The notes below the pieces were generated by a model. The model saw only the letters and a list, made by a program, of their open reading frames with translations, did not search any database and was not told the origin of the DNA. A stretch of 26,341 bases of DNA from a virus. The stretch lies in IMG/VR virus record IMGVR_UViG_3300017719_003292, positions 1 through 26,341 of that record, one strand, 5' to 3'. Each line of letters begins with the position of its first letter. The stretch's first letter is position 1. The position numbers and the translations under genes were made by a program. Below are positions 14,259 to 19,361 of the stretch, in pieces.

Positions 14259-14852
14259 ATGGAACATTTTGTAAGAGTAGTAATGGAAAAGAACGAAAGT
14301 TTAAACGAAAGTTTAGATGAAAGCATTTTTCCAGGTACAGAATTATTAGAAACAGAGCAAGGAGCAAGTGTATATCATATACCGCTACCTAGACTACTAG
14401 ATGAATCGGAAGCAGACGAATATGCTGATAAACTAGCGAACTTCTTGTTTAGTGAGGGCTACGATGACTTTGATATTGAAATATCATCAGGTGACGATAC
14501 ACCTGTCGTAGAAGAAACATACGATGATGACGACGAGTTTTTTGAAAACTACGGAGTTATGTGGTACAATGACGATGACGATCCGATAGATGAAGCAGAA
14601 TATCAAGGACGTAAAGTTAAACTTGGTAAGCCTATGGCAGGTGATACTAAAAAGTTTAAAGTATATGTAAAGAATCCAAAAGGTAATGTAGTTAAAGTAA
14701 ACTTTGGACACGGCGGTTCAAGTGTCAAAGGCAAGTCTATGCGTATTAGAAAAAACAATCCAGCAGCAAGACGTTCATTTAGAGCAAGACACAACTGTGA
14801 TAATCCAGGACCGCGTCATAAGGCACGTTATTGGAGTTGTAGAAAATGGTAG
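14259..14852 (+). CDS. Acidic/basic bipartite protein with Cys/Trp C-terminal module
   Basis: A 197-residue protein. The N-terminal two thirds are very acidic (EETYDDDDEFFENYG, MWYNDDDDPIDEAEY). The C-terminal 80 residues are strongly basic, start with GRKVKLGKPMAGDTKKFKVY and end with SFRARHNC and ARYWSCRKW, where two cysteines and one or two histidines may bind metal. I associate this C-terminal module with marine T4-like phage proteins, but its function is not known to me. Near the N-terminus LNE-S and LDE-S fit the T4 prohead protease cleavage pattern. A late-type promoter precedes it, so a virion or head-interior protein is a reasonable guess. Confidence 0.75.
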   Translation: MEHFVRVVMEKNESLNESLDESIFPGTELLETEQGASVYHIPLPRLLDESEADEYADKLANFLFSEGYDDFDIEISSGDDTPVVEETYDDDDEFFENYGVMWYNDDDDPIDEAEYQGRKVKLGKPMAGDTKKFKVYVKNPKGNVVKVNFGHGGSSVKGKSMRIRKNNPAARRSFRARHNCDNPGPRHKARYWSCRKW

Positions 14853-15019
14853 AAAAATCAGCAGCAGAACAAATAAGAGATTTAGGCAATCGTTTAGCTA
14901 AGATAAACGGATTAGACAATACGGAATCAGATAAACAACAGCCCGAAGATGATAATATTTTAATAGCATCTAGTCCATACGGAACTAAGTATGAAGATTT
15001 TATAAACAAAGAGAGTTAG
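14846..15019 (+). CDS. Small hydrophilic protein
   Basis: A 57-residue frame whose ATG overlaps the end of the previous gene by 7 bp. It has a helical, charged N-terminal half (AAEQIRDLGNRLAKINGL) and an acidic second half (DNILIASSPYGTKYEDFINK). No family is recognised. The next gene starts two bases after its stop. Context favours a real gene. Confidence 0.62.
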   Translation: MVEKSAAEQIRDLGNRLAKINGLDNTESDKQQPEDDNILIASSPYGTKYEDFINKES

Positions 15020-15020
15020 T

Positions 15021-15350
15021 ATGAAGTTACTTGAATTAGCAAACAAAGATGATTTTACACTAGAATGGAATGTATCACATGATTGTCATACATACATGAA
15101 AAATGATCCTATGTTTTATAGAAAAGAATATTATCCTGTTATGACTAGCATATCAGATAAGTTTAGAAAAGGCGAGTCAGTAGACTTTGCAGAGACTTTA
15201 CGTCCATTAGTAAAAAATGCAATGGAACAGTATTGTACAAAGTACGGACTTGATGGTTCACAAAGTGTGTTTACAGAAGAAGATGAACTAAACATAATTG
15301 AACGTATACGTGACGAAGAAGTAAAAAATATTGAAGAAGGGGAATACTAA
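15021..15350 (+). CDS. Unknown helical protein
   Basis: A 109-residue acidic protein that is probably mostly helical. It includes WNVSHDCHTYMKNDPMFYRKE, a region rich in aromatic and His/Cys residues, then long helices ending IIERIRDEEVKNIEEGEY. It sits 1 bp after the previous gene and is followed directly by the nucleotidyltransferase gene. I know similar small proteins from marine T4-like phages but no function. Confidence 0.75.
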   Translation: MKLLELANKDDFTLEWNVSHDCHTYMKNDPMFYRKEYYPVMTSISDKFRKGESVDFAETLRPLVKNAMEQYCTKYGLDGSQSVFTEEDELNIIERIRDEEVKNIEEGEY

Positions 15351-15950
15351 ATGTTTCTTAGAGAACTGTTTGAAGCACCAGCAAAAAGAGCGGTTCTTGC
15401 TTTTGGTAGATTGAACCCTCCAACTATTGGTCATCAAAAATTAGTTGACCAAATTAAGAAACAAGATGGTGATCATTATTTGTTCCTTAGTCAAACACAA
15501 AAACCTAAAACAGATCCACTAGACTTTACAACTAAATTAAATTTTGCAAAGAAGTTTTTTCCCGCTATTAACGTAGGACACCTAAGTGTACGTACACCTG
15601 TACAAGCATTAGAAATGTTACAAAGTTTAGGATATACTGATTTAATCTTTATTGCAGGTAGTGATAGAGTAGATGGCTTTCAAAAAATGTTTGACACATA
15701 TAATGGCAAGCCTGATAAAACAGGTAAAATACCATTTTCTTTTAACACATTAAAAGTAGTAAGTGCAGGCGAGCGTGATCCAGATGCAGACGGTGCAGAA
15801 GGCATGAGTGCAAGTAAAATGAGACTTGCGGCTGCTGAAGGTAACTTAGAAGCATTTTCACAAGGTGTTCCAAATCGTAAATTAGCACAACCTTTATATA
15901 CCGCTGTACGTAAAGGCATGGGCGTAGTAGACAAAGAAACTAATGGATGA
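15351..15950 (+). CDS. Nucleotidyltransferase (NMN adenylyltransferase-like fold)
   Basis: A 199-residue protein with the nucleotidyltransferase signature GRLNPPTIGH (residues 19-28; T25-x-G-H28 replaces HxGH) and GMSASKMR (151-158) in the place of the ISxTxxR motif. The middle DLIFIAGSDRVDGF fits the family's nucleotide-binding core. Enzymes of this fold join a nucleotide to a phosphate-containing acceptor, for example in NAD or FAD synthesis. The substrate cannot be told from sequence. The N-terminus MFLRELFEAPAK precedes the catalytic domain and resembles a cleavable capsid-targeting tag. It overlaps the next gene by 8 bp. Confidence 0.85.
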   Translation: MFLRELFEAPAKRAVLAFGRLNPPTIGHQKLVDQIKKQDGDHYLFLSQTQKPKTDPLDFTTKLNFAKKFFPAINVGHLSVRTPVQALEMLQSLGYTDLIFIAGSDRVDGFQKMFDTYNGKPDKTGKIPFSFNTLKVVSAGERDPDADGAEGMSASKMRLAAAEGNLEAFSQGVPNRKLAQPLYTAVRKGMGVVDKETNG

Positions 15951-16164
15951 GTTACAGGACATAAAGCGCCTTGCTGGGGTAGGAGAATTTAGAGGATATT
16001 CAGAATATAAACTTGACGAAAATCCTAGTGAAACAGCTGCAGAGCTAAAGAAGAAAGAAAAGAAAATGGGACTAAAGCCAGGAGACCAAGAATGGTTTAA
16101 ACTTTGGTTCAGCAAACCTTATATGACAGGTGCTACTCAATTTAGGGGCCGTAAAAAGAAATGA
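15943..16164 (+). CDS. Small basic protein with LAGV and FRGRKKK motifs
   Basis: A 73-residue protein overlapping both neighbours. It starts DELQDIKRLAGVGEF, then has a charged helix (ETAAELKKKEKKMGLKPGD), and ends with WFKLWFSKPYMTGATQFRGRKKK. The LAGV segment recurs in the protein encoded at 18489. No named family is known to me. The basic end and company suggest a DNA-contacting or head-associated role, which is inference. Confidence 0.72.
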   Translation: MDELQDIKRLAGVGEFRGYSEYKLDENPSETAAELKKKEKKMGLKPGDQEWFKLWFSKPYMTGATQFRGRKKK

Positions 16165-17357
16165 AGTTTCAAGAGATATCAGAAGACGGAAGAATTGTAA
16201 AAGGCGTTAACACTACTGTTGATGTTGATACTAACCAGATTCCTAAAGAAGCTGGAAAGTTTGGCAACAAGGTAGATAAAGACGGAGTACCGCCTACACT
16301 AAGTAAAAAAGTAAAAGGCAAGAGTACAAACGTACTATTCAACTTAGGACTTTCTGAAGGCAAGTATGCAGACATACATGATGTAAAAGACTATAGTCCT
16401 GATAACTTAGAAATATGGGTAAAGGGCGTTGGTGTTTACACACTTAACGGACTTAAGAATAGATTAAAACAAAGACTAGAAGGCTTTAAAGATAACATGG
16501 ACTACAACGCTGAAGGCGTAGAGTCAGTGTTAAGCGGCACAGGTTACGATGCATTTATGAGTATGCTTAGAGGTTACAACGAAGTAATGAAAGCATTAGA
16601 AACACCGCAAATGAAACGTAAAAAAACTATTGCAAAGCGTAAAGCACAATACAGTGAAGGTGAACAAATACCTAATCCTAAGAATACATTCTTAGCAAAG
16701 TCTGATACAGCATATGATCATTACAAAATTGGAACAAACTTAGCAAACTTAAAGTCAGTACCAAAAGGTGCAAACTATGATGAACCAGATGTAGTTATTG
16801 CTCCGTATGCTGGACAAAAAGAAATGAAGTATCTTATGAAACAACTTAACCGTATTGGTTATGATGTACAAGATGCTGAAGGATATAAAGATGCACACTT
16901 TGATGACGAGCCTACAGGCGGAGAAGCACCTCCACAAATTAAAGATCAAGGTAAATTAGGTAAAATCAAATTAAACAAATTACGTAGTGTACAAAAAGGT
17001 AGAAACTTCCGTAAACTTGAAAAGCAAATGACTAAAGTAAAAGATGGAAACTACAGTCCTTTAACTATTGATCCAAAAGGACGTATAGTAAACGGCCATC
17101 ATAGGTTTGATGCATTAAGACTTATGGGTGAAGAATTTGCAACTGTTAGAATGATTGACACTCCATTAGAAGAAGTTATTGCAGAAAACTTTGCTGATGG
17201 TAAGAAAAAAGGCAAAAGCAGACCTGGACGAGTAAAGAAGTCAGGTGCTAGTTGTAACGGATCAGTTACAGCACTACGCAAACGTGCTAAGAAAGCATCA
17301 GGTGAAAAAGCAAGAATGTATCACTGGTGTGCAAACATGAAAGGTGGCAAAAAGTAA
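16161..17357 (+). CDS. ParB-like domain protein with basic Cys C-terminal module
   Basis: A 398-residue basic protein in ATGA overlap with the previous gene. At about residues 293-340 it carries a ParB/sulfiredoxin-like domain, SPLTIDPKGRIVNGHHRFDA, with the GHHR motif used by ParB-type proteins to bind nucleotides or DNA. The C-terminal 50 residues (KKKGKSRPGRVKKSGASC, then TALRKRAKKASGEKARMYHWC) are very basic with two cysteines. The N-terminal region is of unknown fold, with NLGLSEGKYADIHDV and EPDVVIAPYAGQKEMKYL. The first residues MKFQEISE resemble a T4 capsid-targeting tag. Nuclease activity or DNA binding is possible; neither is shown. Confidence 0.82.
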   Translation: MKFQEISEDGRIVKGVNTTVDVDTNQIPKEAGKFGNKVDKDGVPPTLSKKVKGKSTNVLFNLGLSEGKYADIHDVKDYSPDNLEIWVKGVGVYTLNGLKNRLKQRLEGFKDNMDYNAEGVESVLSGTGYDAFMSMLRGYNEVMKALETPQMKRKKTIAKRKAQYSEGEQIPNPKNTFLAKSDTAYDHYKIGTNLANLKSVPKGANYDEPDVVIAPYAGQKEMKYLMKQLNRIGYDVQDAEGYKDAHFDDEPTGGEAPPQIKDQGKLGKIKLNKLRSVQKGRNFRKLEKQMTKVKDGNYSPLTIDPKGRIVNGHHRFDALRLMGEEFATVRMIDTPLEEVIAENFADGKKKGKSRPGRVKKSGASCNGSVTALRKRAKKASGEKARMYHWCANMKGGKK

Positions 17358-17560
17358 TGTTTAGTAAACAATGCAAACTACACTTAGAAAAACAAGGCGA
17401 AACTGCCTTACAACATATGACAGCGGCACTAAAGACAGCCGCTAAACTTCAGTTACTTGTACCGGCATTAGTAGTACACAGTGTTGCTCCAAGGTTTTTT
17501 ACTGACACAGCAACAAAAGTAATGGAAGATATACTGGAAGATAGACATGAAAATAAATGA
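17357..17560 (+). CDS. DUF6356-like small protein
   Basis: A 67-residue protein starting in a TAATG overlap. The pattern FSKQCKLHLEKQGETALQHM, then a hydrophobic helix (LQLLVPALVVHSVAPRFF), resembles the DUF6356 family, in which a short polar segment precedes a membrane-like helix with a conserved His and a Pro-x-x-Phe. The function of that family is not known to me. An in-frame ATG at 17327 lies inside the previous gene and is less likely as start. Confidence 0.68.
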   Translation: MFSKQCKLHLEKQGETALQHMTAALKTAAKLQLLVPALVVHSVAPRFFTDTATKVMEDILEDRHENK

Positions 17561-17885
17561 TATAATATTAGAATCCCAAAAAGACACACATTGTTCAGAC
17601 AAGTGTTGTGGTGCAGATACTAAAAGAGAAGATTGTGTTTGTCCAGCAGATTGTAAACATTGTAACTGTAACGATCCTAGTGTGGCAGAATCAGCAAGCG
17701 CAGGTGCTACTAGCTCGGGTAGTGTTGCTAGTGTAGTTAATCCTACGTATGCATACAGTAAGGGTAAGAAAAAAGGCAAACACGGTACACCACAAGCACC
17801 ACAAGCAAAGAATCCAGACGGAACAGCTAAAAATGCCTTAGATATTAAAAACAATTTAATGGGCGGCAAGGTCGCAAAAAGATAA
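17547..17885 (+). CDS. Cysteine-rich protein with basic Gly/Lys tail
   Basis: A 112-residue protein overlapping the previous gene by 14 bp. Residues 16-42 contain nine cysteines in close spacing (CSDKCCGADTKREDC, CPADCKHCNCN), a density that suggests a metal-binding or disulfide-bonded knot. A Ser/Ala/Gly linker follows, then a basic tail (YSKGKKKGKHGTPQAPQ and NNLMGGKVAKR). The start MKINDIILE fits the capsid-targeting pattern described in the findings. Function is unknown; the pattern would allow a small metal-bound domain tethered to DNA or to the head. Confidence 0.75.
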   Translation: MKINDIILESQKDTHCSDKCCGADTKREDCVCPADCKHCNCNDPSVAESASAGATSSGSVASVVNPTYAYSKGKKKGKHGTPQAPQAKNPDGTAKNALDIKNNLMGGKVAKR

Positions 17886-17888
17886 ATA
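17881..17888 (+). promoter_or_regulatory. T4-type late promoter (GATAAATA)
   Basis: GATAAATA includes the stop codon of the Cys-rich gene. Initiation near 17894 puts the ribosome-binding site GTAGGAG (17897-17902) right at the transcript start, before the ATG at 17909. Confidence 0.58.
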
Positions 17889-17908
17889 TATATTAGTAGG
17901 AGTTACTG

Positions 17909-18487
17909 ATGAGAGAAAAAGATTTAAAAGAAGGTTTAGGCGAATTAGCTGATAGAGCTGAGCAAGACCACGAAGTACAAATGGCACGTGCCGAGTTATA
18001 CAAGGCCGCTAAGTATTCAATTAAACTACACGATATGCTTAAAGGTGTAAGTGAAGCAGAAGGCTTAGAAGGCTGGGTACAAGCAAAGATTACGAAAGCC
18101 GCAGACTATTTAAGTTCTGTTTATCATCACATGGATTACCAAGAAGCTGACGATAGTGCAATGGCTCCTGATGCACTAGATAGTATTTCAAGTGGTAAAG
18201 ATGAAGTTGGTGAAGGCAAAGGTAAAAGCAACAAACAAAAAGCTGCTATTGCAATTGCTAAGAAAGAAAAAGGCTACAAAGAATCATTAGCAGACAGATT
18301 ATCTGAAGCTGTTGCTATATGCGACGAGTGCGGTAACCCAAGTTATAAAACATTAGGGTTATCAGAAGATGAATTATCTGAAGTAGCTGGTCCTGAAAAG
18401 TGTTGGAAAGGCTACAAAAGAGCTGGAACACAAAAAGGCACTGGCAAGAACGCAGGCAAACGTGTTAATAAGTGCGTAAAGGCCTAA
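17909..18487 (+). CDS. Helical protein with Cys/Lys C-terminal module
   Basis: A 192-residue protein. Residues 15-80 form a helical domain (HEVQMARAELYKAAKYSIKLH, GLEGWVQAKITKAADYLSSVY) of a kind I associate with marine T4-like phages, without a known function. A lysine-rich middle (GKGKSNKQKAAIAIAKKEKGYKE) and a basic end with a possible zinc site follow: CDECG, then KCWKGYKRAGTQKGTGK and RVNKCVKA. The N-terminus MREKDLKEG fits the [LI]-x-E cleavage pattern, and LSE-A recurs internally near residue 130. It is preceded by a late promoter and good ribosome-binding site. Confidence 0.78.
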   Translation: MREKDLKEGLGELADRAEQDHEVQMARAELYKAAKYSIKLHDMLKGVSEAEGLEGWVQAKITKAADYLSSVYHHMDYQEADDSAMAPDALDSISSGKDEVGEGKGKSNKQKAAIAIAKKEKGYKESLADRLSEAVAICDECGNPSYKTLGLSEDELSEVAGPEKCWKGYKRAGTQKGTGKNAGKRVNKCVKA

Positions 18488-18488
18488 T

Positions 18489-19361
18489 ATGGATTTTCAA
18501 AAACTTCAACAAAAACTATTCCAAATAGAACCAACTGATCGAGCTGCTGATAGAGCAGCGATGGTTGCAAGTATGCAAGGCGCTAACCCGCAAGAAAGTG
18601 TACAAGTTGAAGAAAACTTCCTACAAGAAAGTGTAAATGTACCGCAAGGTACTATGCCAGTTGAAGGTAATTACAGCATAAGTGATTTTGCTAAACTAGC
18701 AGGCGTAACACTTAACGAAGGTAAACAAAAACATGGTAGTGCAGGTCAACTCAAAGGCAAGGATGCCTTTACTAAGAGTTCTAAACCAGGTGGCAACGAA
18801 TCACCACACCCTGCTAGAAATAAACTTGTTGGTGACAGCATGGACAATGATATTGAAGAAGGTCCAATCGATGCTGTTAAAGCTGTTAACAAATCCAAAG
18901 GTTTAGGCGGCGCATTTCAAACAGGTTATAATGCAACACAAAAAGGCGGAGCACTTGCTCCTGATGCTCTAAACAAAGCATTAAGCGGAGTATTTACAGG
19001 CAACGATAAGAAAGATAAAACAGACACTAAAGGCAAGAATAGTGTAGCTGATAAGTATGCAACATCAATACAAAACATACTTAAAGATCCTGCACTAAAA
19101 AGAGAACTATTAATACTAATGAAGAAGGCAAACTCAAAGAGTCAAATGAACTCTGAGGCACAAAAGAAACCTAAGAAACCGTTAATCAAGGCACGTAATC
19201 CGGGATACAAAGATCTACAAGCACTACGCACTAGTGGAGCAGGTGGTTCACATACGGATAAAACAAAAGTACTTCCACGTAAGCAAAAGTACAAAACAGA
19301 TCCTACTCAGGAATCTATCAAAGAAATGCTTTTTCGTAAATTAAACGAAAAAAGTTCTTGA
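18489..19361 (+). CDS. Basic protein, possible head-interior or structural role
   Basis: A 290-residue basic, Lys/Gly/Ala/Gln-rich protein, one base after the previous stop. It starts MDFQKLQQKLFQIEPTDRAA, contains ISDFAKLAGVTLNEG (LAGV shared with the gene at 15943; LNE-G fits the prohead protease pattern), a low-complexity middle, a helical part (YATSIQNILKDPALKRELLILM) and a basic end. No enzyme motif is seen. Together with its neighbours it looks like a scaffold, internal or DNA-contacting virion protein; this is inference. Its stop codon lies inside the -35 box of the next promoter. Confidence 0.72.
   Translation: MDFQKLQQKLFQIEPTDRAADRAAMVASMQGANPQESVQVEENFLQESVNVPQGTMPVEGNYSISDFAKLAGVTLNEGKQKHGSAGQLKGKDAFTKSSKPGGNESPHPARNKLVGDSMDNDIEEGPIDAVKAVNKSKGLGGAFQTGYNATQKGGALAPDALNKALSGVFTGNDKKDKTDTKGKNSVADKYATSIQNILKDPALKRELLILMKKANSKSQMNSEAQKKPKKPLIKARNPGYKDLQALRTSGAGGSHTDKTKVLPRKQKYKTDPTQESIKEMLFRKLNEKSS

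Follow-up and report, generated by a model that had tools for sequence, protein, structure and literature searches.

Phage T4 packs several proteins into its head beside the DNA, and its internal proteins IPI, IPII and IPIII are the closest described counterparts of the genes considered here. They carry a capsid-targeting sequence, a short N-terminal peptide ending in an [LI]xE motif and preceding otherwise unrelated bodies; their content varies from strain to strain, and their protease is of the gp21 type. In T4 the cut follows the rule L/I-x-E, the propeptides measure 10-19 amino acids (aa), and an aromatic residue at position 4 matters for the targeting of IPIII, tag residues 4 and 7, aromatic/hydrophobic in IPIII, being needed (PMC9026906). 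The T-even internal proteins (T4 Ip1-3) disarm host restriction (PMC12373910). T4 Alt, an injected ADP-ribosyltransferase, is a head-packaged enzyme cut by gp21, and several post-glutamate protease sites within one head protein are found in T4 gp22 and gp67 and in the inner-body proteins of phiKZ and SPN3US. In purified virions of cyanophage S-SM1, Sullivan et al. (2010) found a putative cytidylyltransferase, T4-GC190 (PMC3037559), and the accessible part of that report describes no tag, processing or injection role for it. The present work deals with a block of genes at positions 14259-19361 of the IMG/VR virus record IMGVR_UViG_3300017719_003292, a stretch of 26,341 nucleotides (the window) that is a fragment of a marine T4-superfamily phage.

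An original prediction, made from the letters of this DNA, took the block to encode head-interior cargo with T4-like tags. On comparison with related phages, we consider it very probable that the block is a head cargo locus, whose products are T4-type capsid-targeted core proteins, cut by a gp21-type protease and built as exchangeable cassettes. The locus shares with IPI-III the short [LI]xE peptide on unrelated bodies and the variable content, and relatives of the phage have a gp21-type protease. It differs in that the tags of the window have 8 or 9 residues, slightly fewer than the T4 10-mer, that no aromatic residue stands at position 4 of its 8-mers, that extra sites part internal cassettes, and that the cargo families and the locus, of a marine clade, are others. 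A PARP-like block protein in one relative recalls Alt, whereas the window has no Alt homologue and its enzyme is a nucleotidyltransferase. In gp22, gp67 and the inner-body proteins the multiple sites serve propeptide removal or scaffold destruction, whereas here they bound exchangeable cassettes. A literature search found no earlier account of such a tag system in marine T4-like phages, although most subscription journals lay outside its coverage and this is not proof of novelty.

N-terminal tags and the glutamate before the predicted cut

Genes are named here by their start positions, and a slash marks a predicted cut. As stated in the original prediction, the motif stands near the N-terminus as LFE/A in 15351, ISE/D in 16161 and LKE/G in 17909 (glutamate at residue 8 in all three) and as ILE/S in 17547 (glutamate 9), the residue following the tag being A, D, G and S, respectively; further motifs lie near the start of 14259 (LNE17/S and LDE21/S) and inside 17909 (LSE133/A) and 18489 (LNE77/G). 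An [LI]xE with its glutamate at residues 6-11 occurs in 4/9 block genes versus 1/34 other genes of the window (Fisher p=0.0046), and with this p value the window alone is only suggestive. Among the block proteins of relatives, after reduction to a non-redundant set (50% identity across residues 1-30), the motif was found in 47/183, against 6/134 orthologues of non-block window genes (p=1e-7) and 24/461 other genes of the large relatives (p=2e-12). Shuffling residues 2-25 gave a mean of 11.9 and a maximum of 23 carriers in 2000 shuffles, versus the 47 observed. The claimed enrichment was thus borne out, both against shuffled N-termini and against the replication genes of the same phages, in whose orthologues the motif is rarer. 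The block proteins of relatives have it most often at residues 8 and 9. Carriers outside the block are few and include gp21, gp22 and a gene near the head genes; gp21 and gp22 are expected substrates of the prohead protease. A chance origin of the motif was ruled out by the shuffles, together with the counts of sites at cassettes given below.

Glutamate 8 is invariant in three unrelated ortholog families (16161, n=16; 15351, n=11; 17909, n=10), and most of the nearby tag residues vary. One and the same nucleotidyltransferase body is preceded by several tags (MFLRELFE/AP, MRLRQLFE/SP, MKFKDIKE/AP), and one type of tag precedes otherwise unrelated bodies among the block proteins of the window and its relatives. 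In the 14259 family of other phages, the N-terminus is replaced by the T4-like MTKKFRDYLAE, MTKTFKDYLKE, MSKTFTDYLKE or MKKFKQYIDE, and in the small podo- and siphophages Aegir, CRP-902 and HTVC106P the C-terminal domain of 14259 exists as a free, untagged protein starting at the domain. Likewise, the nucleotidyltransferase homologues of PA5oct and KP13-7 start almost at the enzyme, with no tag, and the PA5oct homologue lacks the note of detection by electrospray tandem mass spectrometry (ESI-MS/MS) that its neighbour genes carry.

The assignment of 15351 as a nucleotidyltransferase held up, given its match to PHROG 3041 (E=2.5e-48) and the conservation of the TxGH and SASKMR (SxSxxR-type) motifs in the ortholog alignment; PDB matches to S-layer proteins (E 0.03) were set aside as weak. 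The S-SM1 record gives the mark T4-LIKE GC 190 to SSM1_190, a gene that matches 15351 with 39% identity over 188 residues (E 5e-41) and whose product begins MKKFSAFLNE/A, a start that fits both the L/I-x-E rule and the 10-residue propeptide (PMC9026906). Comparable starts are found in Syn9 gp184 (MKKFSAFLSE/A), P-SSM2 (MKSFSQFLTE/T) and Melnitz (MKKFSEIIE/ARGDTAVFTFGRFNPP), the last with the same boundary as 15351 of the window. The enzyme domains of SSM1_190 and Syn9 gp184 are 39-41% identical to that of 15351, but the cyanophage proteins have a 10-mer tag, MKKFSAFL[NS]E/A, and about 70 extra residues before this domain; 10-mers of isolates such as MKKFSAFLNE fit the T4-type residues 4 and 7. 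In another relative (L065) nucleotidyltransferase and ParB-like domains are fused behind a single tag.

A prohead protease gene was looked for, a check named in the original prediction. Among 12 records of relatives, Pfam Peptidase_S77 was above cut-off in two, G002 and G004 (E 1e-25 and 6e-27), the other records being partial; in both the gene adjoins those for portal, scaffold and capsid. The gene of gp21 type was found in two long relatives and not in the window fragment. The gp22 proteins of G002 and G004 hold 16-17 [LIVM]xE[AGSTN] sites in 362 aa, against about 0.5 sites of the same type per 100 aa in the non-block genes of the window. Head targeting and cleavage of the tagged proteins are thus strongly inferred from the enrichment over two gene sets, the invariant glutamate before the cut (P1), the loss of the tag in homologues of other phages, the gp21-type protease in relatives and the tagged S-SM1 homologue detected in virions (PMC3037559). 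For the predicted head-interior cargo, this means that targeting and tag removal are well supported by comparison, whereas only four of the nine genes have the plain tag.

Cassettes between predicted cut sites

Six recurring modules are preceded in most of their contexts by [LIVFMY]xE, either near the N-terminus or deep inside proteins, and a seventh pattern, that of the nucleotidyltransferase, was met in one context only; for comparison, 22% of random internal 13-aa windows hold the motif. The modules had been selected visually in the first set, and contexts that are related do not count as independent. For the Cys-rich cassette of 17547, all loci together gave 47 distinct contexts, with an entry site in 45/47 and an exit site in 44/47, and in the mutually dissimilar internal contexts the entry site was present in 13/13 (binomial P about 3e-9). 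A second cassette scan, run after the idea had been formed, yielded 24 contexts, 17 of them new, with the entry site in 22/24 and VxE behind the cassette in all rows among the matches listed.

The same modules appear in different surroundings. In relatives the Cys-rich cassette lies inside the 17909-type body, the GSAGQxKGKD module of 18489 stands in relatives behind N-terminal tags or other cut sites, and the 15021 domain is in some relatives fused to the C-terminal end of large tagged proteins. A series is seen at the place of 17547: the window has tag, cassette and arm (112 aa); L002, which is 97% identical to it in 16161, has a hydrophobic module (AFPLLIPALIAGARIAAPW...) between the tag and the Cys-rich cassette, followed by the arm (274 aa); and G001 and L005 have tag and arm (72 aa). 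The junctions of these variants fall at or adjoin [LIVA]xE sites, and close relatives thus differ by the in-frame gain or loss of cassettes at cut sites. The hydrophobic Gly/Ala-rich module, found at L002:2928-3752 after the tag and a second site and also in several relatives, could be membrane active.

The arm of 17547 resembles the sequence that follows the gp23 maturation site in G002 and G004 (KYL[AS]E/[TS]ATAG[AT]TSAGN). SSM1_197 of S-SM1 (L129:7805-8353) and Syn9 gp190 (L136:9449-9973) are annotated as 'major head protein'; they begin with a copy of the post-gp23-cut sequence (TGY/TGGF...ATGPTAGYDPV, where the slash separates variants) and are different in the rest, so that here again a block protein bears the arm of a head protein.

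Layout of the block and its further candidate cargo

Beside its nine listed genes, the block contains a small conserved one at 17357-17560 (Table 1); the latter and the exchangeable internal cassettes are points beyond the original prediction. The locus sits between a tail-fibre-like gene and the DNA polymerase gene (20020), and the window also holds clamp-like (24517), PhoH-like (2053) and ClpA-like (9662) genes, identities that were read off the sequences and related T4-like genomes. Close relatives abound in IMG/VR, where 590 candidate stretches code for a protein related to 16161. Megablast of the block against phage records gave no match, and a Pfam search left most block proteins without a confident family.

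Table 1. Features of the block, with positions in the window; a slash marks a predicted cut
Feature	Positions	Strand	Remark
14259, 197-aa protein; acidic N-terminal part (residues 1-112, isoelectric point (pI) 4.1), variant tag MEHFVRVVME, sites LNE17/S and LDE21/S	14259-14849	+	
C-terminal basic domain of 14259 (residues 113-197, pI 11.3), after conserved xxDE/AEYQGRKV junction	14595-14849	+	
57-aa protein, untagged, only in few close relatives; searches gave no function	14846-15016 (gene 14846-15019)	+	
109-aa protein, starts MKLLELAN, without plain tag	15021-15347	+	
Nucleotidyltransferase tag MFLRELFE/	15351-15374	+	M1, L3, E8 invariant in 11 orthologues
Probable cargo enzyme of the nucleotidyltransferase superfamily, with conserved TxGH and SASKMR	15375-15947	+	homologue of virion-detected S-SM1 cytidylyltransferase (PMC3037559)
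73-aa conserved protein (MDELQDIKRLAGVGEF...), without plain tag	15943-16161	+	
ParB-like protein tag MKFQEISE/	16161-16184	+	E8 invariant in 16 orthologues
N-module of 16161, DGRIVKGVNTTVDV...	16185-16349	+	
ParB/sulfiredoxin-fold domain of 16161, ~residues 264-340	16950-17180	+	
Basic C-terminal module of 16161, two conserved Cys (ENFADGKKKGKSRPGRVKKSGASC...MYHWCANM)	17184-17354	+	
Small conserved gene (MFSKQCKLHLEKQGETALQHM...) overlapping 16161 and 17547	17357-17560	+	present in L002-L006
17547 tag MKINDIILE/	17547-17573	+	
39-aa Cys-rich cassette of 17547, 8 Cys, ends SVAE/; predicted cut on both sides	17574-17690	+	
Basic arm of 17547, SASAGATSSGSVASVVNP..., pI 10.3	17691-17882	+	
17909 tag MREKDLKE/	17909-17932	+	M1, E8 invariant in 10 orthologues
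17909 body: DHEVQMARAEL helical module and Cys-containing C-terminal module	17933-18484	+	
290-aa basic protein, no N-terminal tag, internal LNE77/G before GSAGQxKGKD module	18489-19358	+	

The ParB-like character attributed to 16161 was recovered in part. The protein matches PHROG 620 (E=2e-5), and its structural model matches ParB N-domains in Foldseek (E=1.7e-4) over residues with a predicted local distance difference test (pLDDT) score of about 70-85, which agrees with a ParB/sulfiredoxin fold; of a full ParB with its DNA-binding helix-turn-helix, only the N-domain-like fold was found, most of the model lying below pLDDT 50. The model of the 14259 C-terminal domain (mean pLDDT 43) was too poor for use. 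A 64-aa protein of the 469-kb Sinorhizobium phage Phosso (L001:6001-6195), encoded beside tail-type genes and tRNAs, is made up almost wholly of a tag-like beginning and the 16161 module KGVNTTVDV, the module following ILKLLE/DGKVVKGVNTT. The 8-Cys peptide of 17547 may, as a guess from its cysteine pattern, bind metal. In relatives, polyA-polymerase-like, nucleotidase-like and peptidoglycan-binding domains occur in block proteins as well, and the block protein at L071:4613-5497 joins a MRFSEIVFVHLNE start to a PARP-like domain (YHGTS; E 1.6e-4), an idea like that of T4 Alt. Deoxyribonucleotidase matches of one ortholog profile (A1) were discarded, being due to an extra domain in some orthologues.

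Two other features invoked in the original prediction stood only in part. Most block proteins had been described as basic, and 5/9 whole proteins do have a pI above 8.5, whereas the pI of 14259, 14846, 15021 and 17909 is acidic or close to neutral; the C-terminal domain of 14259 would have a pI of 11.3 if the cut follows IDE112, although the whole protein is not basic. Late-type boxes do precede some genes (one ATAAATA 23 nt ahead of 14259, another 27 nt ahead of 17909), but the window holds 7 in total versus a chance mean of 12.3, so that the late-promoter argument gets little weight.

Probable head cargo, possible delivery and the alternatives

If the block is a head cargo locus, the tagged proteins would be made late and drawn into the prohead core via their N-terminal tag of 8-10 residues, a gp21-type (S77) protease would cut after the tag glutamate ([LIVM]xE/small residue), and the mature bodies would stay in the head with the DNA. 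As further sites lie between modules, one precursor could give several products: 17547 would yield the Cys-rich peptide and a basic tail like the arm of the major capsid protein, and 14259 its basic 85-aa domain. Gain and loss of genes would amount to adding or dropping site-bounded cassettes. Likely cargo would be the nucleotidyltransferase, the ParB/sulfiredoxin-fold protein and the Cys-rich, perhaps metal-binding, peptide, and the products would enter the host together with the DNA and act at an early stage of infection. Such injection is plausible by analogy with T4 Alt and IPI-III, and a role of the cargo against host defence, as for T4 Ip1-3 (PMC12373910), is possible on similar grounds. 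We also lean, with some reserve, towards the notion that this marine T4-like lineage delivers protease-cut polyproteins, in which any cassette between two [LIV]xE sites, the Cys-rich and probably metal-binding one among them, would be freed in the head and carried to the host; new injected functions could therefore arise by cassette moves between precursors.

Several observations weigh against the cargo reading. The plain tag is absent in 14846, 15021, 15943 and 18489, and 14259 has a variant only; position 4 of the 8-mers is R, Q or K and not aromatic; in 16161 the predicted cut is followed by Asp, and V or M occupies P3 of several sites. Neither a protease nor a capsid gene is present in the 26-kb window, a fragment, or in a 118.9-kb close relative, so the link to gp21 is drawn from more distant relatives. 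The virion detection of T4-GC190 concerns the S-SM1 homologue and not the phage of the window, it proves neither a head-interior position nor tag removal, and the case for injection is one of analogy.

Among the alternatives, the one to be taken most seriously, which we nonetheless regard as unlikely, is that the tagged proteins are structural or assembly parts of the prohead core, scaffold-like as gp67 and gp68, which are cut and partly lost in maturation and not delivered. The dense predicted internal cutting, as in gp22 with its 16-17 sites, would suit such a role, as would several small, basic modules without known enzyme family and the 17547 arm that mimics the mature gp23 N-terminus. Yet a core scaffold would not be expected to vary between close relatives as this cargo does, nor to include enzyme domains with conserved motifs (the nucleotidyltransferase and, in relatives, the PARP-like, polyA-polymerase-like, peptidoglycan-binding and nucleotidase-like ones), and mature S-SM1 virions still contain a tagged homologue (PMC3037559). 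The same virion protein speaks against the block proteins being ordinary intracellular enzymes or regulators, with an N-terminal peptide that serves, say, translation or stability, a view that we judge improbable despite the usually intracellular habit of cytidylyltransferase and ParB-like families and the proximity of DNA polymerase and clamp genes. Replication-gene orthologues of these phages are without the tag, and untagged homologues start at the tag boundary, which counts against intracellular enzymes with an unrelated N-terminal peptide.

It could further be argued that the motif is short, that the window alone gives p=0.005 and that homologous proteins are not independent observations, so that [LI]xE might simply reflect N-termini rich in Leu/Ile and Glu, or the common descent of a few proteins, with no targeting role. 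This we hold to be very improbable, since the counts come from non-redundant sets, composition-keeping shuffles never exceeded 23 against 47, and the site is met again at module junctions inside proteins, in contexts unlike one another; moreover, different bodies carry the tag and the same bodies are untagged in other kinds of phage.

Should the head cargo reading be correct, abundant phages of the ocean would have hundreds of unannotated proteins that qualify as candidate injected effectors and are recognisable by their tag, and there would be a reason for the presence of a cytidylyltransferase in cyanophage virions, which the accessible part of the 2010 paper leaves unexplained (PMC3037559).

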